The notes under the pieces: generated by a model
What the model was told of the DNA's origin: nothing
The model's input: only the letters and a program-made list of their open reading frames with translations
Databases searched by the model: none
Part shown: positions 1-32,984 of the stretch, in pieces
Layout: the number at the start of each line of letters is the position of its first letter
How positions within the stretch are numbered: position 1 is the stretch's first letter
Position numbers and translations under genes: made by a program
NCBI GenBank assembly: GCA_026874595.1
Contig: CM049307.1
Span: 79,894,643 to 79,958,642, forward strand
Source: Sipunculus nudus
Taxonomy: Eukaryota; Annelida; Sipuncula; Golfingiida; Sipunculidae
Reading direction: 5' to 3'
DNA length: 64,000 bases

Positions 1-227
1 ACACCACTCCACCGCACCCCACCCGACGCATGTTCCTGAAATTGGGACCTTGAATTAGGTTTTGTCATTAATCCTCCTGGGTTGATCTCTCCATTTCATA
101 AAGCGAGAAACATGTGTTTTTCTCTTTCACTGACCACGCACGTCGGTCAAATCCCTCATTGAAAGCATGCGCTATTCATATGAACAATAGTCCTTAGTAT
201 TAGGGGTAAAGTGACAACGATGCACGC
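1..227. other. No gene seen; flank of tandem duplication
   Basis: Unremarkable AT-rich sequence to the left of the tandem duplication. No coding or structural signal is visible. Confidence 0.5.
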
Positions 228-1304
228 ATTCCGGTAATTGCCGAAGACAGTTCGGTTGTGCTCGGTTAAAAAAAATGGAAAAATCACTCAAAATTATATG
301 TATATTAAAAATTATTTATTTTCATATCGCCTATGTCACTGCGGGGATAATAACCTTTAAAATGATGTATGGCACAATATTGTACACAGCGCGGTTTTAG
401 AGAACATTGCGCACAAACATGAACTGAATTCCTTTTATAAGTATTAGATATTATTTTTATTATACTATAACTGCAAACAAGTCTTAATAGCACTCTTGAG
501 TTTGGAGGATGTGCCGCCCTTCCTTCGGTTATATATTTCATACTTCTAAACCTGTTCATACTGATTGACTATTGAATCGATTGATAAATGTCAACCAGAA
601 TGAAAAATCATTGCATAACTTAAAAATTAAATTCCAACTGATTCCCATCACTATAGTATTCACAGTAGTATTTAAGAGTCATCTGCATGCCAGTGGTGGA
701 TTAAGCCTTACTGGTCACAGTAACCTGGACCTGGGTGTTTATAGCTCAGGGTGGCCTGCCATTGCTGATCAACTACAAAATTAAAATAGTACATTGGCAT
801 ATGTGAAAATATTTTCCCCATTGATACTTAAAATGTAAAAACAAACAAACAAACAAAAAACAGTGGTTACAACACACAAACTAGGCCACTACCTATTAGT
901 AATATAAAGATTGAACGGTATTTATATCAAGTTCTGCCATAAATATGTTTACGTCATGATCATCGTGACTATAATACTATCTTTGTGTTTATCATTTAAA
1001 TCACCGCCATCAACCTGTGTGGCATTTATGTGCTTTCTGGAGACATGAGTTTGGAATGCTAGAGGCGGATCCGGGGGGGGGGGGGGGGGTGTACGGAGCT
1101 GTCATTCCACCTGGACGACTTCGGGATTGAAGACTCTGGGATTGACGACATTCTGAATGGAAGACATTCCGAAGACGACAATATAATTTGATACGTCAGA
1201 AGGAGTTCAAGGAGGGTAATTGGGGAATTACTACTGTAGTTGGGGCTAGGGTTAGGTTTTAGTAAGGGTTAAAGGTTAGGTTTTTAGTTTTGGGTTGGGT
1301 GGTA
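228..1304. repeat. Tandem duplication, copy 1 (about 1.08 kb)
   Basis: This stretch starts with ATTCCGGTAATTGCCGAAG and recurs almost letter for letter from 1305, a period of 1077 bases. Copy 1 carries about 60 extra bases near 485-545 that copy 2 lacks, flanked by short CTT-type repeats, and has a shorter poly(dG) tract (1073-1089). It ends in GGTTAGG-rich sequence. No credible protein is encoded; the small reading frames are repeated by chance in both copies. It may be a true segmental duplication or two haplotypes placed in tandem by the assembler. Confidence 0.9.
1090..1190 (+). repeat. Short interspersed block, also at 2125-2220 and inverted at 7808-7880
   Basis: The block after the poly(dG) tract contains spaced CATTC, CGTC and GGGATT words. 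A diverged reverse-complement version occurs at 7808-7880, outside the duplication, where CAGAAT, ATTCGGAAT, ATCGTCCATCC and AAGTCGTC appear in matching order. It is therefore a dispersed repeat rather than unique sequence. The superfamily is unknown. Confidence 0.5.
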
Positions 1305-2325
1305 ATTCCGGTAATTGCCGAAGACAGTTCGGTTGTGCTCGGTTAAAAAAAATGGAAAAATCACTCAAAATTATATGTATATTAAAAATTATTTATTTTC
1401 ATATCGCCTATGTCACTGCGGAGATAATAACCTTTAAAATGATGTATGGCACAATATTGTACACAGCGCGGTTTTAGAGAACATTGCGCACAAACGTGAA
1501 CTTAATTCCTTTTATAAGTATTAGATAGTATTTTTATTATACTATAACTGCAAACAAGTCTTCTAAACCTGTTCATACTGATTGTCTATTGAATCGATTG
1601 ATAAATGTCAACCAGAGTGAAAAATCATTGCATAACTTAAAAATAAAATTCCAACTGATTCCCATCACTAGTATTCACAGTAGTATTTAAGAGTCATCTG
1701 CATGCCAGTGGTGGATTAAGCCTTACTGGTCACAGTAACCTGGACCTGGGTGTTAATAGCTCAGGGTGGCCTGCCATTGCTGATCAACTACAAAATTAAA
1801 ATAGTACATTGGCATATGTGAAAATATTTTCCCATTGATACTTAAAATGTAAAAACAAACAAACAAACAAAAAAACAGTGGTTACAACACACAAACTATA
1901 GGCCATTACCTATTAGTAATATAAAGATTGAACGGTATTTATATCAAGTTCTGCCATAAATATGTTTACGTCATGATCATCGTGACTATAATACTATCTT
2001 TGTGTTTATCATTTAAATCACCGCCATCAACCTGTGTGGCATTTATGTGCCTTCTGGAGACATGAGTTTGGAATGCTAGAGGCGGATCCGGGGGGGGGGG
2101 GGGGGGGGGGGGGGGTGTACGGAGCTGTCATTCCACCTGGACGACTTCGGGATTGAAGACTCTGGGATTGACGACATTCTGAATGGAAGACATTCCGAAG
2201 ACGACAATATAATTTGATACGTCAGAAGGAGTTAAGGAGGGTAATTGGGGAATTACTACTGTAGTTGGGGCTAGGGTTAGGTTTTAGTAAGGGTTAAAGG
2301 TTAGGTTTTTAGTTTTGGGTTGGGT
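1305..2325. repeat. Tandem duplication, copy 2
   Basis: Near-identical second copy of 228-1304, with only scattered substitutions, a deletion of about 60 bases and a longer poly(dG) tract (about 2091-2115). The strong identity outside homopolymers implies a recent duplication or an assembly effect. Confidence 0.9.
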
Positions 2326-2367
2326 GAGGGTTATAGGGTTCTGTTAGGTTTTTTTGGTTAAGTTAGA

Positions 2368-2381
2368 TAAGTTGGTTTTAG
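2368..2381 (+). repeat. Target-site duplication, left copy
   Basis: TAAGTTGGTTTTAG here is repeated exactly at 7259-7272. The two copies bracket the LINE insertion. Removing 2382-7272 leaves a continuous GTTAGG-rich host sequence. Confidence 0.9.
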
Positions 2382-2587
2382 AAGAAGAAGAAGAAGAAAT
2401 TTATTTGTAGAAAAAGGCCTTGTGGCCCATGGTACAAATATAAACATAAATAAATGCAATTGAACAATAAACATGTAACATGATAACATGCAGTTAATAC
2501 ATACATATAAACATGGTTGTGTTACCTGCTGTTGTGTTGTTTCATAATCATAAAGTTTCTGTCACATCAAGTTCTTTCTTTAATTTG
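2382..2587 (-). mobile_element. Inverted 3' segment: ORF2 C-terminus, 3' UTR and TTC tail
   Basis: Read on the minus strand, the segment starts with CAAATTAAAG, encodes the residues KLKKELDVTETL and a TGA stop, then gives about 150 bases of 3' UTR. A GGGCCACAAGGCC near-palindrome (complement of about 2416-2430) precedes the end, which is a TTC microsatellite tail (2381-2398). Its first codons continue ORF2 exactly where the plus-strand copy is cut at 7260, so this is the missing end of the same RNA and not an unrelated insertion. Confidence 0.88.
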
Positions 2588-2724
2588 AGAAGAGCGCCAC
2601 CTGCTGGGGTGACTGAAATACGTGCTTCACATCGGCTCCCAGAAAATATTCTGATATTTGGATAGAATACAGAGCTGGTCATATATAGTGACTTATTAAA
2701 TGTTTGTGAGCACTCAAGTACGAA
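2588..2724 (+). other. Probable 5' UTR of the LINE
   Basis: About 140 bases lie between the inversion junction and the first candidate start codon. The sequence is richer in GC than the host (GAGCGCCACCTGCTGGGG near 2591). In APE-type LINEs an internal promoter is expected here, but no specific promoter motif is recognised. Confidence 0.5.
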
Positions 2725-3712
2725 ATGGGAGTTGGCATTACGGTCTGGAGGGCCAGGATAGGCTGCTACGCTCAACCGGGAATCCGAGAAAAGTTTCGGC
2801 CAGGGACCATAACACTGACAGGTATGTCCTTGACCTTGCGTCTTGTTGTATCCATGACGATACTGCTAACAATGTCTGGAGACGTTGAGTTGAACCCCGG
2901 TCCCCCAAAACAAACAGGCAATAAGGCAAAAAGTTCCAGTGTACAAAGCACAATACTGGAACACACGCGTGTTCTGAGAAGCAGCACGACAGACGGCTCA
3001 CAGGAACCTGATTGCATGGTGACAGAACAGGTGAGCGATAATGGGTCTATCGACCAACTGGCTGCCACCGGGGACAGTGTCACCGGTAGTACTTGTAGTT
3101 CAACACAAAACCTAGGCCCCAAAGATACTGATAGCATTTTGATCAGACTTGAGAAACAAGTACTTGAGCTACAAGGACAGGTAAAGTCACTGACTAAAGA
3201 AAACAAAAACCTCAAATAAAATTAGTAGGATAGAGGATCAAATGAGAAGGGACAATTTAGTAGTACATGGAATACCAGAAGATTCTAAAGAATCATGGGA
3301 TATGTCTGAAAACAAAGTGAGGAAGGTGATGAAAGACAAATTAAAAATTGAAAATTCAGAGGAAATTGAAATTGAAAGAGCGCATAGAATAGGGCCAAAA
3401 CGGAGTTCTAAAACTAGACCTATAATCGTTAAATTCAGTAAATTTAAGTGTAAACAAACAGTTCTGGTTGCAGCAAGGAAAGAACTAAAGGGATCTGGCA
3501 GTGACATAAAGTTTACAGAAGATTTCAGTGATCGTGTGCGGCAGATTAGAAAGGTTCTTGGCAATGAATTAGAGAATGCGCGGAAAGCTGGAAATACTGC
3601 ATACTTGTCCTATGACAAACTGATCATAAACGGTAAAACGTACAAGTGGGATGAAGACACAAGCTCAGTCGTTGATATTCTCGAGATGAGGTCACGTGTG
3701 AATGATGAATAG
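2725..3712 (+). pseudogene. LINE ORF1: 2A leader, coiled coil and RRM-like domain (one frameshift)
   Basis: Frame 1 from ATG 2725 (or the better ATG at 2824) gives a hydrophobic leader ending in GDVELNPGP, a polar Ser/Thr-rich linker and a coiled coil (LEKQVLELQGQVKSLTKEN), and stops at 3217-3219. The protein continues in another frame from about 3215: NKISRIEDQMRRDNLVVHGI, then ERAHRIGPKR and DKLIINGKTY. This order, coiled coil followed by an RRM-like fold with the RRDNLVVHGIPE block, matches L1-type ORF1 nucleic-acid-binding proteins. A single-base change around 3214-3220 explains the break. The C-terminus ends at TAG 3710-3712, in the same frame as ORF2. The likely role is RNA binding and chaperoning of the retrotransposon RNP. 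Confidence in the domain order is high; whether this copy makes protein is doubtful. Confidence 0.85.
2824..2904 (+). other. 2A-like ribosome-skipping peptide with signal-like leader
   Basis: From ATG 2824 the product begins MSLTLRLVVSMTILL, a basic then hydrophobic stretch like a signal peptide, and runs directly into SGDVELNPGP. The core fits the 2A consensus D-V/I-E-x-N-P-G-P in full. Skipping would fall between Gly and the final Pro (codon 2902-2904). 2A motifs of this type are known in APE-type LINEs, and signal-sequence/2A combinations are known in sea urchin. Here it would release the leader from ORF1. All consensus residues are intact. Confidence 0.9.
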
Positions 3713-6700
3713 GGTTTGGGCCGTGGCCCAGGAGAATATGTGAACAATTTAATACAATATGAGAATAACAGATATACATTACCTACAAAAGAAACGGATA
3801 ATACAGATAATCTTAGAAATAATGTAAATACAGACAGAAACTTTAAAATTGTATCCTGGAATTGTCAAGGACTTAAATACAAACAACAAAGTAATGAAAT
3901 GAAAAACTTACTGATAAATTATGACATCATTAGTTTGTGTGAAACTTGGGGTGCATATGATTCAGAATTTGATGATATGATGATGGGATTTACATGCTTT
4001 TCTAAAACACGCAAAAAGGCAGATAAAGGAAGAAATTCTGGTGGTGTATCTGTGTTTGTAAAAGATATATTTTGTACTTATGTTCATCGCATATATGATC
4101 ATTTTCAAGACATGGTTGTACTCCTAATGAATGGTAGAATTATTGATATTGATAATAATATTATTATGATATTTACATATATATCACCAGATGGCTCACC
4201 AATATACTTAGAACAAACAGATGGTATCAGTATTCTAGAAGAAAAATTATATATATTGAAAGCTAAATATCCAGATGCAAATGTATTTATAGCTGGAGAT
4301 CTTAATGCCAGAACTGGGAATATACAAGATTATATAAATCCATGTAAGGCAGATTCAGATATGATAAATGATCTTATTACAATTGAAAAAGATTCCATAA
4401 AAGAGCGTTGTTCTAAAGACAAAATAGTCAATAAATATGGAAGAATGTTACTTGATTTTTGTATAAGTAATAATCTCTGTATATTAAATGGTAGAACCAT
4501 AAATGATACTGAAGGTCAGTTCACATGTGTATCCTATAATGGTGCTAGCATTGTTGATTATATGGTATTATCAGTAGATATTATGCATTGTTTATCTGAT
4601 TTTGAAATATTAGATTTTGACTTGTCTGACCATTTTCCAATATGTTGTAGGTTCACTTGCACCAAACTGCACACATCATTGTATTCCTCTATGCACCTGC
4701 ACCCTTATCAGAGAATCCAGTGGAAACCTGAACTAGCACATTCCTTGTCCCAGAATGTTTTGGATCAGACAGGTAATGTTACAGTTGCAGACTTTAAGCA
4801 TAATATTTTATATTCAGAAGTTAATCATCAAGAAATTGATCAATCAGTAAGTATTTTAGAAAATATTTTGTTAATTGCATGTGCTCACATGTCCAAACCA
4901 GCACAAAATAAATCATTAAGACAACCAGCCTGGTGGGACACTCAGTGTGAAACCCTGAAAAAGATTAAATATTCAGTATTAAACAAATTTAGGAATTCAA
5001 AAAATTTATTACATTTGGAAGAATACAAAAATAAAAAACAGCAGTTCAAAAGAATTTGTAGGCAAAAATTGTTGAAATATAAACACAAGTTACAATGTTC
5101 CTTAATTGATAAAATAAATAAACCAGATAAATTTTGGAAAGAAGTAAAATTATTAACAAGAGTACAAAGGAAAAATGTAAACATTAATCCAGAAGAATGG
5201 TATACTTATTTTAATGACCTTCTCAATGTTAAGGTAGAGATAAATTCTTCATTTGAGAAGAATGTTGATAATTATTTAGAAAACCATGATTTATGTTGTG
5301 AAATGTGTTCTCAAAATTCCCCATCTATTCTTAATTCTGCTATTTTGGAAAGTGAGATTACGTGGAGTATTGAAAACACAAATGTAAATAAGGCACCTGG
5401 AACTGATGGACTCATTATAGAAGTATTTAAATGTACCAAAAATATCATAATTCCTTATTTATCTATCCTATTTAATCAAATAATGGTAACTGGACATTTT
5501 CCTAAGAGGTGGACAGAAGCAATACTTCACCCTTTACATAAATCAGGAAATCATAATAATGTGAATAATTATAGAGGGATTGCCTTGTTAAATACTACAG
5601 GAAAGATATTTACTAAAATTCTCTGTTCAAGAATAACAAGATGGGCCATAGAAAACCAAAAATTATATGAATGTCAAGCTGGATATAGACAAGGTTATTC
5701 CATTCCAGACCAAATTTTTACATTACAAGCAATAATACAGAAATATTTAAGCAAGAAAAAAGGGAGGGTTTATTGTGTTTTTGTCGATTTTAGCAAAGCT
5801 TTTGATAGAATTTCACATAAGTTACTTTTATACAGATTAATTAAAATAGGGATTCATGGAAACATAATTAAGGTATATTAAAATCCATGTTTGAAAAGTT
5901 AACTTGTTGTGTCAAGGTAGACAGTGGTTTAACGGAAGAATTTAAATGTTTTAATGGTACAAGACAAGGTTGCTTATTAAGCCCAATATTATTTATTTTA
6001 TATCTTAACACATTCTTTGAAATGGTTCATGAAACACAGCTTCCTGGTATTCAGATGTCATTACAACACAGAGATATAAATATTTTGGCCTTTGCAGATG
6101 ACATTTGTCTCATTGGAGACTCAGTTGGAAGACTTCAAAGCTTATTGAACATTTTAGAAAAATTCTGTGACAGATGGGGTGTGCAAGTCAATATTGATAA
6201 AACTAAATCTATGGTATTTAGAAGGGGAGGAACGGTAAAGCATAATGAGAAATGGTATTTCAAGGGTAAAAAGCTTTTAAATGTTAATAGTTATACATAT
6301 TTAGGAGTTATGTTCTCTTCATCACTGAAATGGAACCAATATTTAAATATACTTATGTTGAAAACAAGTAAAGGTTTAAATATTATAAAGAGTTGTGAAT
6401 CAAAATGTGGTAAAATGTCGTTATCAGTCATTTTGACTATTTTTGAGAAAGTTATAGTCCCTTCACTACTTTATGGTTCAGAAATATGGGGGTCCATTCC
6501 AAGACCAAAAATAGAATGTATGCAATCACGTGTTTGCAAGCAACTCCTTGGTGTGAGTAAAAAAACAGTAAATACTGCTGCCATATTAGAATGTGGAAGG
6601 TACCCTCTACACTGTATATATTTTAAAAGATGTATAAGTTATTGGTTAAAAATTATCTCAATGGAAAATTCTAGATACCCAAGATTATGTTATAACACTC

Positions 6701-7258
6701 TCAAACAATTAGATGATATAGGAAGAAGCACATGGGTGACAGATATAAAACTGCTGTTAAACAGATATGGTTTTAGTTTTGTATGGCTTGAGCAAAGTGT
6801 AGGTGACAGAAAAATGTTTGTGAATATGTTTGTACAAAGGGTTAAAGACAATAGCCAGCAAGAAATGTTAGCAGAAATCCAAAGTAAATCTAAGCTTAGT
6901 ATATATAGTGAAATTAAATCAGCAATAGAACCAGAAAAATATTTATATAATATGGCATTTGTATACAGACAAGCTTTATCAAAATTTAGATTAAGTGACC
7001 ATTGCTATGAAATTGAAATTGGAAGGAGATATAATGTACCCAGAGAAATGAGGATCTGTAAAATGTGTGACCAAGATGAGGTTGAAGATGAGATACATGT
7101 TTTATTTTATTGCTCTAGATATGAAAATATCAGAAAAGAATTTTTTACATCTTTTAAGGAAATTCCAAAAAATATATATGGTTTAATTAAGCTATTAAAA
7201 ACTCAGTCTTTTAATGTCCTTTTGAATGTAGCTAAATATTTATTTCAGGTTAACAAAT
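3713..7258 (+). pseudogene. LINE ORF2: APE endonuclease, reverse transcriptase and C-terminal CCHC finger (one frameshift)
   Basis: The frame opens straight after TAG 3710-3712 with no ATG before the endonuclease. APE endonuclease motifs: FKIVSWNCQGL (about 3842), SLCETWG (about 3930), AGDLNARTG (about 4294) and LSDHFPI (about 4624). Reverse transcriptase motifs: NKAPGTDG (about 5387), NNYRGIALLNTTGKIF, FVDFSKAFD (about 5777), GTRQGCLLSPILF (about 5956) and the catalytic FADD (6091-6102). A C-terminal finger CKMC...H...YC spans about 7057-7113. The frame stops at TAA 5879-5881 and resumes in another frame with KSMFEKL, so one or two bases have been lost or gained there. The last codons before the stop at 7270-7272 lie in the target-site duplication; the native end is in the inverted segment 2382-2587. 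The protein would nick DNA and reverse-transcribe the element RNA, but this copy needs its frameshift bypassed. Confidence 0.93.
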
Positions 7259-7272
7259 TAAGTTGGTTTTAG
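7259..7272 (+). repeat. Target-site duplication, right copy
   Basis: Exact repeat of 2368-2381. Its first bases (TAA) overlap a matching word in the LINE, a likely microhomology used for second priming. Confidence 0.9.
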
Positions 7273-7334
7273 GTTAGGGTTAGATTATGGTTTTTAGTAT
7301 TAGGATAAGGGTACGAAGACAAATTGCTAAGAGG

Positions 7335-7466
7335 AAAAATACTTGGCCGTTCCGGGATTCGAACATATGTCGGTGGCGCACAAGTCCGGCGCACCAACCG
7401 CTTCCCAGGAAAAACAAGCTTGGCTAGCGAGAATGTTCGGTCCGATTTTATGTTACCCCATAACAA
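7335..7466 (-). mobile_element. tRNA-derived SINE, copy 1
   Basis: Read on the minus strand there is a pol III B box GTTCGAATCCC (7354-7364), preceded by a weaker A-box-like TGGGAAGCGGT (7397-7407) and the shared block GCCGGACTTGTGCGCCACCG. The sequence is clearly related to the copy at 7607-7738. The spacing of the A and B boxes fits a tRNA head. No intact tRNA cloverleaf is claimed because the acceptor and anticodon arms are degenerate. The SINE family is not identified. Confidence 0.65.
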
Positions 7467-7606
7467 AAGCCCTCTTAAGAGCGTGCTGCAATCAAAACAA
7501 GATCTATTATCCCAGGATTCACAATTTGGTGAGCTTATTCCCTGGGCCACAAAGTTTACCGTCACGTTCGACGAACCCCCATTTGTTACAGAGACAAATT
7601 ACATAG

Positions 7607-7738
7607 GGGAAAACATAAGGCCGATCTGGGATTCGAACCCATGTCGGTGGCGCACAAGTCCGGCGTTCACCCGCTTCGCTAGAAAAGCAAGCTTCACTAG
7701 CGAGACAGTTCGGTCCGCTTTTATGTCACTCCGTAACT
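7607..7738 (-). mobile_element. tRNA-derived SINE, copy 2
   Basis: On the minus strand it has a perfect A box TAGCGAAGCGGG (7670-7681) and a B box GGGTTCGAATCCC (7628-7640), about 30 bases apart as in a tRNA gene. The flanking GCCGGACTTGTGCGCCACCG block and the downstream ACCGAACTGTCTCGCTAGTG segment recur in copy 1. It is therefore a tRNA-headed SINE, better preserved than its neighbour. Confidence 0.7.
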
Positions 7739-7739
7739 T

Positions 7740-9690
7740 TTATGTATAACTTAAACGCTGTATCAAATACATCTACTTTAACTACTTATTACGTATTATG
7801 TTATATTGTTGTCCATTCAGAATTTCATCCATTCGGAATATCGTCCATCCCAAAGTCGTCTAGCTGGAATGTAAGCTGTATATATGGGGGTAGGGGTCTA
7901 GGGATCCGACCCCTGGTTCCGCTGCTTGTGGCATTCAAAACTCAACTTTTTTTAAAGGGTTTTAGCTAAGTTTTGCCTTGACCTCATCTTTTGCTTACAA
8001 GGGGACCTTTTTCAGGCCTTGTCATTAGTCCACCTGGTTTGGACTCGAATTTTCCTAAATCCTGGATCCGCCCCTTAATACATTCCAGCTTTTAGTAGAA
8101 TACTGACATGTTCCTACAGAGCATAAAACTAGGAAGTTGCGGTCATATTTGTTATATCTACTGGGTAACTTTCTAAAGCTAGCTGTGTGAAAAAAAAATA
8201 CACAGGGCAATGCAAGACCCTGTCCATATAATTTTCCTGAGTTATGACCAATTATGTAGAAAATATAATTGGCTGCAATAGGAACAGAGGTATCGCTTCT
8301 TTATGTGTGTACTTGTATATAAATGTTTGTCTGAAGACGTAACTGTATTTAAAAAAAATGTTCTTAATTATCAAGAGAATCCATACAAAACAAGATCTTC
8401 TGCTAACCCCAATCTAACCTTTCCTATGCCCAGAAGTGAATGATAGTCCAGTTTTTGTTACACTGATCCCTGTCTTTGGAATCACCTGCCATTTAGTTTA
8501 AAGACCGCCTCAGATAGCTATTATTTAAAGTACTTGTACAAAAAGTTCGATACAGAACATTTTATAATCATATGTATTCTTACCTGATATTCGCCAATTT
8601 ATTAGATCTCTCGTAATTTACATATGTGCTGTCTTATTTTAGTTTATAGCAAATGAGTTCACCATTATCATGATTTGTACTTTCGTTCATGTGTTAATGT
8701 CTAGTTTTTATTATTCATATCCGTCTTGTTTATCAGCTTATTTTCAAGTCAGCCTCGGAGAGTGAACACTTTATCGACGCCAACTAGCATTTTTTAAATT
8801 AGATGTATACTTATACATATATCTGTCACATATTATGCTTGTCCTTTTCTTAGGGATCAATTGCCACTTAGTTGGATTACTAACTTTTACAAAGACTTTT
8901 TAGGCCCTTATACAGTTTAATGTAGCAGAACATTTTATAATTTATATATACTTACTTTATGTTTTACATTCTCATATTCTCGTTTGCATATTGTTTTATA
9001 TGTTTTAGTTAATATCCTAGAGTGTACAATTGTCTTAGACTTCCAAGTGGGTATTCGCGTACTATTCATGTATTTATCTTCATGCTATATATTTAGCATA
9101 TTTAGTTATACATTTAGTTAGCATTTAGTTATACTAAGGTTAACCCTTTTTTATATGTAAATGCGGGTTTGTGTAAATACAATAATGTACAACACTCACG
9201 TACTACTGCACAAGCGCGTGCTACATCGTTTATAGACGGTGATTTTTTTGTAAAAGGACATTATAAAACAGTACGATGGCGATTACAGATAAAGGGATTT
9301 TTGCATGTGCCTCTATATGCTTGAATATCGTTAATACATGAATTTGTAACTGGGGTGTTTTCATGTGAGTCAGAATATGTGTGTGTGTATCTGTGTTTAT
9401 TAGCCACGGGAGCGATTTTCACGCATATAGGGTCTGCATGAACTCAGGGATTTAGGGTAAAATGACGTCACTTAGCCATATTCTTCTTGGAGGCCTGCTT
9501 GATCCACTTTACACATATATTAGCCTGCCAATTCACGAATATACGTGGACATGGAACGAACCTTTATAATAAGTTAATACCTATCTAGGCATGTTTTGTG
9601 ATACCACGCATCACAAGTGTCACAGCCCAGCCAGTCCTCGTCACCGCCATCATGTAACGAACAGTATATATCTGCAGGCAGTGGTGTCTA
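7740..9690. other. No gene seen
   Basis: AT-rich non-coding sequence. It contains the inverted diverged block 7808-7880 already noted. No open frame of credible composition and no element termini were recognised. Confidence 0.5.
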
Positions 9691-27915: not shown

Positions 27916-29107
27916 AACCAAGTAAATAAACTGGTCAGTGTATTCTGATATCAAGATATTTATTATTTATGACTTATGATATCAGATACATCAGTTAAAA
28001 CATCAACCAAATGTTATCCATGAGTGTATAACTCGTGTATTTTAGACTTTAATCAGATATAAGGATATTTGTAGGCTATCAGCATTTGTTATACACATCA
28101 CAAAGGAACTATTGCGTCGTCTATTCAAGCCTGTTGACAACACCTGTGACGCCTAATCCCGCATATTCACCTCCACGACGTCATTCACGGCGTCAATCAC
28201 AATGAGGGTTGGCTCGTCAGAGCCTGAACAGGGGATCATGAACGACTCCCTCATTCGCGCTGCAAGACTCAAAAGGGACTCCGTGGAGCCTTCACTATTA
28301 AAAGCCCATGGCGATCTTTGTGAGCAAAATAAAGCTGAGTGGATGAAAAAAGTAAAGAAAATGACTTTACATGAAACCTTCATAATTACCAAAAACAAAT
28401 GTCTACGAGATATCCGTGGAAACTTTCAAAATTAAATAATGCTCCGGATGAGATTAAAAATTGCGATAGTTGGCCCATGGCAAAAGGAATAACCAATACC
28501 GTGAATGAACGGAAGCAGGCATTAACAAAGTCTAGAGCAAATGATGATTCTTCTGCAGCCAGTCGACGTAAGTCAAAGAATACTCGGGAGAATACTGGGG
28601 AGTGGTAGGAGGAGAGGCAGAGAGGAGGCCAAACGGGAGACGGATGTTGGCCGGTCTGCGGTGGACAGACGACACACAAAACCAGGACCGCGCCACCCCC
28701 GGCTCCCGTTCAAGATCAAGATCAAGATCCCTGCTGGCTACCAACAACAGTGGAAGACCTACTCTTGAAAGAGATGAGGAAAGTTGAAGAAGAGGATTGG
28801 CCAGGGCCATTTTCTGAGAAACTTGGAATATCAAGAAATTTGATAAGTTGTCTTTGTGATGGGGGGGGGGGGGGTTCTTCTGTGTGTGAGTGAGAATGAA
28901 TTGACGAATGGGTTTGTGATGGAGGTGTACGGGTGTGTGATGGAATGTAGGAGTGAGTTGCATGTTGTGAGGTGCCTTGGCAGGTTGATGGGATATGAGA
29001 ATGTGGATGACTGGATGAGTGTGCGTGCGTTTCATTACTGGTATGGGAAATGTAAGTCTGAGTTGAAAGGTATGAGGCATGAGTTTCTGAATGGTGTGTT
29101 TCATTTG

Positions 29108-29270
29108 CCGGGGAGTGGAATGTGGGGGGGGGGGGGGGGGAGTGGGGATTGTCTGTGTGTGCAGAGTGGAATGGAGGGGAGTGGGGATAGAGTGTGTGTG
29201 CAGAGAGGAATGGAGGGGAGTGAGGATAGTGTGTGTGCGGAGTGGAATGGGGGGGGGGGGGGGGGGAGGG
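29108..29270 (+). repeat. Intragenic minisatellite, about 47-bp unit
   Basis: Three diverged units built on GAGTGGGGATAGTGTGTGTG and GAATGGAGGGG, bounded by poly(dG) tracts at about 29125-29140 and 29249-29266. It lies between the FHLPGSG block and the coiled coil and has probably expanded inside a linker. Confidence 0.75.
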
Positions 29271-30485
29271 AGTGAGCTTGAGGGTCGGGTGGGGACAGTG
29301 TCAGGTCGTGAGAGCGGTGTGAAGGTTATGTACGAGCGGGAGAAGGAGCTGGTTGAGATGGTGAGAAAGTTGAAGATGGATGTAAGTATGAAAGAAAGGA
29401 GAGTGTTTGATGTGAGAAACTTTAGAAAGAAACTTGCGAGAGGAGATAGTATGATTGCAGAGTTGAATGAGAGGGATGGCCGAATTTTTAAATTGAGGCC
29501 AGGTTGAGTGAATGTGAGGGTGAGCGTGTGAGACTAGAGAGTGAGCTTGATGACCTGTATGTGGATGCATGTGTGGAAGTGAATGAACAGTGTGAAAGGT
29601 ACGCATGTCTAAGAAGTAAGTATGACGCTGCAAGAAAGGCACTCTGTTATAGGAGTGCCTGTGAAAGTGTACAGTGTGTGAATGACAAGCTGGTTTGCCT
29701 GAGTGAGAGAGTGCGTGATTTGGAGAATGAGAAATGTATGTTGGAAGAGAGGTTGGAAGATTTTGTGCGGAGTGACTGTGTGCGTTTTTTTTTCATGGAG
29801 GAAAGTATACGAGTGAGATCAGAGGAGTGTATATGGAGCTGATTGGTATGGGTGTGAGTGCGAGCAAGTGTGAGTCGATTGTGACATGTGTGATTGAAGG
29901 TCTGGGAAAGAGTGTGGATAGATTGCCGAGAGAGACGTGTGCTGAGAGAATGGTGTATGAATGTAGAGCGCTGGCATGGATGCAGTTGAGTGAATGTTTA
30001 GAGAGTGGGAATGTGACTTTGATGAGTGATGGAACGACAAAGTATGGCAGACATTATGAAAGTTTGGGTGTAAGAACAGCGGCTGATGAAAGTCTGACTC
30101 TGGGTGTGAGAGATGTTGCGAGTGAGGATGCTGAAAGCCTGTTGTGTGTGCTGCGTGAGATTTTGATGGATGTGGCTAGCATGAAAGGAGGAGATGTGGG
30201 TAAGCGTGTGCAGGGCATGATTGTTAGCATGAAGAAAACTAAGAGTGATAGGGCTGCTGCAGGTAAGAAGTTTTGTGAGTTTTTGTATGACTACAGGAGA
30301 GATGTGTTGCCGCATGTGTTGAATGAATGGAATGGGATGAGTGACAGTGAGCGTGAGAGATTTGTAAGTATGAATAATTTTTTTGTGGCCTCCACTACCT
30401 TGTTGGTTTAGCTGATCAGGCCGGTGTGCATGTGGGAGAGTTTGATATTTGGTGAGAGTGCGGTGGGTGCTGTTGCGAAATGATG

Positions 30486-31154
30486 TAAAGGTGGTTTTCC
30501 ATAAGTGCGTAGTGCGTATCCGTAGTCCGCATGCGTAGTCCGTATGCGTAGTCCGTATCCGCAGAGTTCGTTTTCCATAAGTACGTATATGCGTAGTGCG
30601 TACTCCGTATTGATATGTGCTCGATAGCTGAAGTTTATCTTTTTTTGCAAGCCATTTCACCATATATTTATTATACATTTGTATATATTAGCATCAAAAG
30701 TTAAACAATAAAATAAAAATAATAACATTTTTAAAAGATCTTAATAAATAATATTTATACGCGACTGCGATGTGTACGCTTCAATCATCTAAAAACATGT
30801 CTGTGATAAAGAAAGGAAAACATAATTCAGCCATTTGCCAATATGTTGGGTTTATGGAAAACTAATGCCAGAAATGACATTCATACCAGTTGAAAATAGA
30901 GACTGTGCATACAGCACGGCCTGAATGGGGAAAACTCTTTGCTAAACCTGAAATCTACACGATGATTGGTATGCGTAGTGCGCAAAAATCGATCCCAGCA
31001 GCGTGGGGATACGGACTACGCATACGTACTACGCATGCGGATGAATGGAAACGGCCCAGTTAAAAAGTCTACAAAGCGATTTTTGCGGACTACGCAGCGG
31101 ACAACGCATAAGGACTACGGATACGGACTACGCACTTATGGAAAAGCACCTTAA
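30486..31154. mobile_element. PIF/Harbinger-type MITE (663 bp) with TAA target duplications
   Basis: The termini are inverted: AGGTGGTTTTCCATAAGTGC (from 30489) and the complement of AGGTGCTTTTCCATAAGTGC (to 31151). The homology extends about 45 bases inward. The flanking TAA at 30486-30488 and 31152-31154 is the 3-bp target preference of PIF/Harbinger. Subterminal regions carry iterated GTAGTCCGTATGC-type words in both arms, plausible transposase-binding sites. The interior is AT-rich and non-coding; the repetitive Arg/Thr/His frames come from the iterated words. It splits the coding sequence of the surrounding gene. Confidence 0.88.
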
Positions 31155-32984
31155 GAGTGAGAAGAGCGGGAGTGGAACTGTACGTATGGTCAGAAAGGTA
31201 TGCAAGGCTGTGCAAGATAGAGGGCGTGAGAAGAGTGGAAAGCCTGTGTGGTTTCGTGAGTTTGGACGTGTGAGAGATGGGAAGGGGCATATACCCCTTG
31301 CACCATTCAGAGGGAACAGATTTAATATACTGTTCCATAATGGTGCAGGGGTATAAGCTCTTTACCCCTTGTTGTGCGAATGTTTTGAGTGCGTGAAAGA
31401 TGAGAACCTGTTGATAAAAGCGGAGCATGCTGACCTGGGTGTGGAGCAGTTTGTGTGTGGAGTGCGTTCTTTGGGGCTGATTGACAAGTTGCTGACTGGG
31501 TCGTTGTGGAGAGTGAGTGAGAGTGAGACGAACATGAGTGGACTGAATGCTAGGTTTGAAAGGTTACTGGTGTGTTTACACAAATGGGCTCAGGATGCAA
31601 GTAGTTTGATGAAAGGATCAGAGTGTTTGTATGAGGATGTCAGTGTCAGAAAGGACTGGGGGTATGATGCTTTGGCGAAAGAGTGTGAGAATGATCGTAT
31701 GACTGGCATCTTTCTTCAGTAAGACCCAGAAGTTGCTTCAAGATCAGTTACGAGGTGGAGTGAATGCTTATCTGAGTGAGAGAATGAGTGAGACTGCCAG
31801 TGTGCCCATGACGAATGTAGGGTGTAAAAGAGATTTTGGTATGCTAGATGACCTGATGCGTGAAAGACCGAATAAATGTACGTGTGCAATGGAGGGTGTC
31901 ATTATGTTTCGAAGGAATGACACCCGGAGTTGGCTGAGGAGTATGGGTGATGATCAGTTGAGAGAGCAAGTAGAGCGAGCGAGGCGTAGTGTGAAAGAGC
32001 AGGTGAGTGAGTTTCGGAAGAGTAGAGCGGTTGTGGGTGCAAGAAGAGCGGAGAAAATGAGGGAGAAACGGTATGTGCAGGAGAGAAAGGAGTTACGTGA
32101 CATAGTGAAAGCAGAGGATTTTAATGTGGAGTTGAATGAGTTCGGGGGTTGGTTGATAAGTGAGAGAGAGGTGGATGAAAGGTTGTGTGAATGCAGGGTT
32201 GACAGAAGGAATCTTGCGGTTGAGGTGCAAATGTGTTTTCGAAAACGTGTTGAAGTGTGTGAATGTGGATGGATGTCTGAATTTCAGAACGGGAGGTCGT
32301 ATGTATACGTATGATAAGCTTGTGGTGAATTTGAAGAAGGTTGTGAGCATGAGTAGTGAGGACCGCGAGAATGTGAAGTGTGCAGATGTTTCGTTTACTG
32401 GTGTGTGTGTGTGTGCCTGATTGTGAGCTTGATGATGAGAAAGAGAAGTTTTTGACAGTTGCTGAGAATGAGTGTGTGAATGAAGGTAGGAGAATGTGTA
32501 AGCTAGATTTGCCTTTTATTCACTGTGTGGATGATTTTCTGGGGAAGGTGATCGAAAGATGAGTCTGAGTGGGAGAGATGTTGTGTGAATGAGGTGAAAG
32601 AATGTGTTGTTGGGAGTGAGCGGTTGTTTGTTGGGGTTTTGAGGATTATTGGTGGTGAATCGTATGAATGTGATTTAGTGAATGGTTTGAAATGTGGTGT
32701 TTTACGTTTGGCGAGTTTGGCGAGTTCAGATTTAGTTGGAATGAATGTTGAGCAGAGGTTTGTGGATGATGGGTGTGAAAGCTGGTGGAAGGGCAGAGTG
32801 CTGGATGTTGTTGGTAAGAAAGGTGGTAAGAGTCCCGAGTTTGTTGTTTTATATGAGGAGAGTGAGGCTGAGGATGGGGATGGGGAGTGGAGGTTTAGTT
32901 TGTTTGATGATTATATGTCTGGTGATTTGCGTGTGTTTTGGTAGTGGTTGTGTGCGTGTCTCTTATCAAGGGGGGGGGGGGTTG

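Follow-up and report, generated by a model that had tools for sequence, protein, structure and literature searches.

An inverted LINE copy in Sipunculus nudus with the structure of a twin-priming product

How did a LINE copy in the genome of Sipunculus nudus come to carry its 3′ end in one orientation and the rest of its body in the other, with both pieces between a single pair of target-site duplications (TSDs)? We analysed a window of 64,000 nucleotides (C2:79894643-79958642) and searched the 1.43-Gb genome for related copies. The locus almost certainly arose when an APE-type LINE inserted once by twin priming, a mechanism already known from human L1, and as such it is a typical product and a well-documented new example. 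In the usual terminology, it is the 5′ segment of 4.67 kb that counts as inverted, not the 206-base antisense piece. The features, with the natural copy L032 as reference, are as follows:

2368..2381, plus strand: left TSD, TAAGTTGGTTTTAG, an exact match to 7259-7272
2382..2587, minus strand: non-inverted 3′ segment with the last ORF2 codons, the 3′ UTR and, at the left, the (TTC)n tail; putative first cDNA
2588..2591, no strand: inversion junction, three to four bases without a match in L032 (AGA and possibly a native A)
2592..7258, plus strand: inverted 5′ segment of 4.67 kb with the complete 5′ end, ORF1 and most of ORF2; putative second cDNA
2881..2904, plus strand: DVELNPGP, a 2A-like motif early in ORF1, from the translation
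3194..3709, plus strand: part of the frameshifted ORF1 with a weak L1 RBD-like domain match (PF02994, 23.2 bits against a cut-off of 22.4)
3713..5878, plus strand: ORF2, AP endonuclease and start of the reverse transcriptase (PF03372, PF14529, PF00078)
5872..7258, plus strand: ORF2 continued in another frame, remaining reverse transcriptase, cut at the putative second priming site (PF00078; phmmer)
7254..7258, plus strand, and 2583-2587, antisense: CAAAT, present in both cDNAs
7259..7272, plus strand: right TSD, whose first three bases, TAA, match the RNA too (second-primer microhomology)

The insertion (2382-7258) is enclosed by one 14-bp direct repeat around both LINE segments, exact over its length, with zero extra matching bases on either side; a first-pass annotation of this DNA had placed it correctly to the base. 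The repeat is far above chance expectation, which by base composition is 5e-7. Among 20,000 random pairs of sites drawn from the window with matching spacing (three bases of slack), three gave a 14-bp match and the remainder 10 bp at most.

Both segments can be followed on L032. The 3′ segment is 99.5% identical to positions 4663-4866 and the 5′ segment is 99.2% identical to positions 1-4670, the latter match extending three bases into the right TSD (7259-7261), so that the second target end shares a 3-nt microhomology, TTA, with the RNA at the internal priming site. The bases AGAA at 2588-2591 are absent from L032; the last A precedes GAGCG in L028 and in the older copies L043 and L046, and the extra bases at the inversion junction probably number three. 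Microhomology was looked for at this junction in the window, and the three to four unmatched bases found in its place count against twin priming.

The predicted proteins place the element among APE-type LINEs and include a 2A-like motif; its tail consists of TTC repeats. Matches to PF03372 and PF00078 are above cut-off in the window and within one open frame of L032, and a phmmer search with the second part of ORF2 matched reverse transcriptase chains of solved structures, including L1 ORF2 and R2. ORF1 and ORF2 are both frameshifted in the window copy; other copies keep both frames open. APE-type non-LTR retrotransposons with 2A-like sequences were reportedly described by Odon in 2013, and the AP endonuclease, the reverse transcriptase and the position of DVELNPGP near the start of ORF1 resemble such elements, ribosome skipping at the motif being putative. 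The form of the motif is given as D[V/I]ExNPGP in an excerpt of PMC4981915. The TTC tail and the 2A-like motif are the two features that would set the element apart from L1, and the weak match of ORF1 to the L1 RBD-like domain (17.8 bits for the open ORF1 of L032, under the cut-off of 22.4) would be compatible with an L1-like clade. An Rfam search of the window gave zero matches. At 2594-2607 on the minus strand, the 5′ end of the LINE carries CCAGCAGGTGGCGC, which is found in L032 and L029 and is absent from L028, L039, L041 and L042; we read it as an instance of the core motif of CTCF, the sole one within the 64-kb window.

We then asked what the arrangement is in related copies. A 3′-end probe gave 97 candidates, 40 of which were scored: 18 copies, the window included, had at least 97% identity and 22 had 82-90%. 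The 17 other young copies bear out the annotation of the left 206 antisense bases as the 3′ end of this family. Only in the window copy, among the 40 scored, did the 3′-end probe read past the inversion junction. When the body side was fetched for all 17 other young copies, the body segment ran into the 3′ segment on the same strand with a 5-nt overlap in 16, each with CAAAT once, where the window has it twice; the exception, L041, is inverted at that point. These collinear copies are one of two checks proposed in advance by the first-pass annotation, which had expected full-length copies to join the two pieces without a gap.

Four of the 18 young copies are non-inverted with a 5′ end: L028, which has an internal duplication, L032, and L039 and L042, which lack the first 5 and 7 bases, respectively, compared with L032. 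Eleven are 5′-truncated (L036 additionally has an internal deletion), and three, namely the window copy, L029 and L041, are inverted (17%, 95% interval 4-41%). A 5′-end probe, for which all 23 candidates were scored, recovered the same four non-inverted and the same three inverted copies as its seven matches at 98% identity or more, giving an inverted share of 3/7 among young copies with a 5′ end. A common source for the inverted copies was considered and rejected, since the seven differ over their first 2.1 kb mostly by private variants, with no subgroup evident.

The second check, an empty site with a single copy of the 14-mer, came out in the same direction. The target is a tandem unit of approximately 1.44 kb that makes up both flanks. 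On C2, six further units align with the joined flanks over their full length (95-98% identity) and run uninterrupted across the site, and each has the 14-mer once (five exact, one with a single substitution); a seventh, partial match (91%, query 73-387) spans the site as well, as judged from the alignment. These empty sites are paralogous and not allelic, and the structure was read from an assembly and not from reads, both of which weigh against twin priming. An assembly error that wrongly joined two haplotypes or two copies would draw on the same dependence on the assembly. We consider it barely credible, since the TSD, the cDNA overlap and the microhomology all fit a single event and the interrupted target unit was read empty six times.

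Several other repeats were observed around the insertion and elsewhere in the window. Upstream tandem units occupy 228-2326 (543-1301 against 1560-2326, 97%; 228-485 against 1305-1562, 98%), and the same contig has arrays of units, likewise about 1.44 kb apart, at distances of about 250 kb and 3 Mb. At 7317-7737, a repeat occurs as two copies that share 81% identity and are separated by about 275 bp; the beginning of this repeat has many genomic matches at 87-90%, and it carries the word GGGATTCGAAC, presumably tRNA-like. Imperfect inverted-repeat arms (2078-2235 and 7778-8075) flank the insertion, as if the LINE had landed in a foldback or MITE-like element. At 28532-32944, open frames cluster with 13-bp tandem repeats; one of the three scanned gave a weak Agenet Pfam match below cut-off.

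The three young inverted copies can be compared in L032 coordinates:

Window copy: first cDNA 4663-4866, second cDNA 1-4670; TSD 14 bp; second-primer homology TTA; CAAAT present in both cDNAs
L029: first cDNA 3142-4866, second cDNA 1-2097; TSD 12 bp (13 if a base common to TSD and tail is included); second-primer homology GA; junction filled by about 14 AT-rich bases
L041: first cDNA 4667-4865, second cDNA 8-3285; TSD 13 bp (two of them common to TSD and tail); second-primer homology AC; 1-nt junction homology

Each has its own TSD (12-14 bp) and a second-primer homology of 2-3 nt. In the window, the cDNA ends meet at one point on the RNA; in the other two, approximately 1.0 and 1.4 kb of RNA lie uncopied between them.

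These copies bear on the possibility that the LINE first inserted normally at full length and that staggered breaks or recombination afterwards turned its 5′ 4.67 kb around. The flanks are rich in repeats, and staggered breaks could leave an overlap as short as CAAAT. However, one break would have to hit the border between the TSD and the 5′ end of the element and leave the TSD intact, the same arrangement recurs at two other loci with different TSDs, and microhomology at the boundary between target and RNA is found in all three young inverted copies. We regard a later inversion as very improbable. Nested insertions are common in repeats, which would speak for two separate insertions side by side, one of a short 3′ fragment and one of a piece without its head. 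The two pieces have a single common TSD, the 5′ piece has no tail, and they overlap by 5-8 nt on the RNA; the junction sequence at 2587-2592 contains neither a second TSD nor a tail. Such a double event has next to nothing in its favour.

Twin priming, the reading already given by the first-pass annotation, is favoured by the exact TSD, the 16 collinear copies of 17, the six empty units of six, the 5-nt cDNA overlap and the 3-nt microhomology. It is further favoured by L029 and L041, which are also inverted and have their own TSDs and 2-nt microhomologies. We infer the order of the nicks, the priming events and the joining as follows. The endonuclease would nick the target after TAAGTTGGTTTTAG, and the nicked 3′ end would prime reverse transcription at the UUC tail, yielding a first cDNA of 206 bases. 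The opposite strand would be cut 14 bp away, and this second 3′ end (...CCAACTTA) would anneal to the same RNA at a UAA close to the ORF2 terminus, through its last three bases or, with a bulge, maybe four. A second cDNA would be primed there and run to the RNA 5′ end, and joining of the cDNA ends with three to four extra bases would leave, in order, TSD, antisense 3′ end, sense 5′ part and TSD. The annealing differs from that annotated at first, a TTAAG/AAATTAAAG duplex: the target 3′ end pairs with UAA over 3 nt, or 4 nt with a bulged A.

Twin priming would account for every feature but one, a shared stop of the first cDNA, which falls at 4663 in the window and at 4667 in L041, 4 nt apart in two independent insertions. 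The chance of two of three ends lying within 4 nt is 0.5-2.7% by the range assumed, a post hoc figure. A stable RNA fold was rejected as its cause (z of -0.2 against shuffles). The three inverted cDNAs measure 2.1, 3.3 and 4.7 kb and all reach within 7 bases of the RNA 5′ end, so the nearly complete 5′ end described at first as unusual was the rule among young inverted copies (3/3), with 0/2 for older ones. A link between inversion and 5′ completeness was not retained: inverted young copies were complete in 3/3 cases against 4/15 for non-inverted ones (Fisher p 0.043), and adding the older inverted copies gave 3/5 (p 0.29). We put forward only as a tentative suggestion, with the odds against it, that an internally primed second cDNA tends to reach the RNA 5′ end, giving long 5′-complete inverted copies, and that the first cDNA prefers to end after some 200 nt, counted from the RNA 3′ end.

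TSD lengths were read by eye with tail-shared bases excluded (the 13 of L041 includes two), and the numbers are small. The inverted copies have 12, 13 and 14 bp and three full-length copies 12-13 bp. Among 5′-truncated copies, five have 11-15 bp (L026, L027, L033, L034, L040), three have 7-8 bp (L031, L036, L038) and L035 is ambiguous at about 7 bp; L028, L030 and L037, situated in repeats, were left outside the counts. An excerpt of PMC2912911 describes the same pattern for human L1, with short TSDs confined to truncated copies.

Human L1 is the natural comparison, since Ostertag and Kazazian reportedly attributed its 5′ inversions to twin priming in 2001. As in human L1, the tail-bearing 3′ segment is non-inverted and the 5′ segment inverted, and TSDs of 12-14 bp fall inside the 10-20 bp that an excerpt of PMC4245944 gives for most inverted human L1 inserts, which again favours twin priming. 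Excerpts of two further papers give inversion rates of 18.4% for the human germline (PMC12016303) and 30.9% for human and chimp (PMC2912911); against this range of 18-31%, our 3/18 (17%) is close to the human germline. The short second-primer homology is also shared, approximately 70% of human cases having 2-5 bp in excerpts of the same papers (PMC12016303, PMC2912911). Human cDNA ends are often close or overlapping, and those in the window overlap; ends meeting at one RNA point are the kind of event seen in 46% of human cases (132/287, ends within 20 bp; PMC12016303, in excerpt). Unlike human L1, the element has a TTC tail where L1 has poly-A, its ORF1 carries a 2A-like motif, and its young inverted cDNAs of 2.1-4.7 kb compare with a human germline median of 751 bp in the excerpted source.

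Zebrafish ZfL2-1 and Nimb-2_DR, studied in cultured cells, are other non-human-L1 LINEs that use target-primed reverse transcription (PMC4245944, in excerpt). In that excerpt, ZfL2-1 gave 5-bp TSDs and zero inversions, 5′ inversions in cell culture were confined to human L1 in human cells save for one Nimb-2_DR insert in DT40 cells, and long target duplications were suggested as a requirement for inversion. Unlike ZfL2-1, the young copies here have TSDs of mostly 11-15 bp and frequent inversions, as that idea, so far as the excerpt sets it out, would predict. A young TTC-tailed LINE with 3/18 copies inverted fits the TSD-length idea in a natural genome and, if the element is truly not L1, offers a second system for testing it. 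Judged by titles and the beginnings of abstracts, none of the papers found on twin priming with mention of invertebrates concerns an invertebrate LINE, which does not imply absence from print; the mentions of twin priming in PMC2718515 and PMC5389967 are reference-list entries, and the words inversion, inverted and twin are absent from PMC13295347, on reptile Bov-B LINEs.

The older copies (82-90%) include inversions as well. With about 1.1 kb of body side fetched for 19 of the 22, at least two were inverted (L059 and L070), a lower bound, since longer first cDNAs escape and 57 of the 97 candidates lay outside scoring; the remaining three, on C17, lie about 4.8 kb from their 5′ ends, whose strand is that of a non-inverted copy. 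In L059, the first cDNA starts from 4065 and the inverted part covers 3256 to about 3492, with TA repeats on both sides that mask the TSD; in L070, the first cDNA starts from 4286, the inverted part covers 3210-3946 and there is no clean TSD. Both inverted parts are 5′-truncated, and the state of the two TSDs counts against twin priming. The 5′-end probe gave 16 older matches; among the seven fetched with 400 bases upstream, none had antisense element sequence there and four keep the 5′ end within 7 bases. At C9:44873649-44875366, the 5′ end of the LINE occurs as three older copies in tandem with a spacing of about 730 bp.
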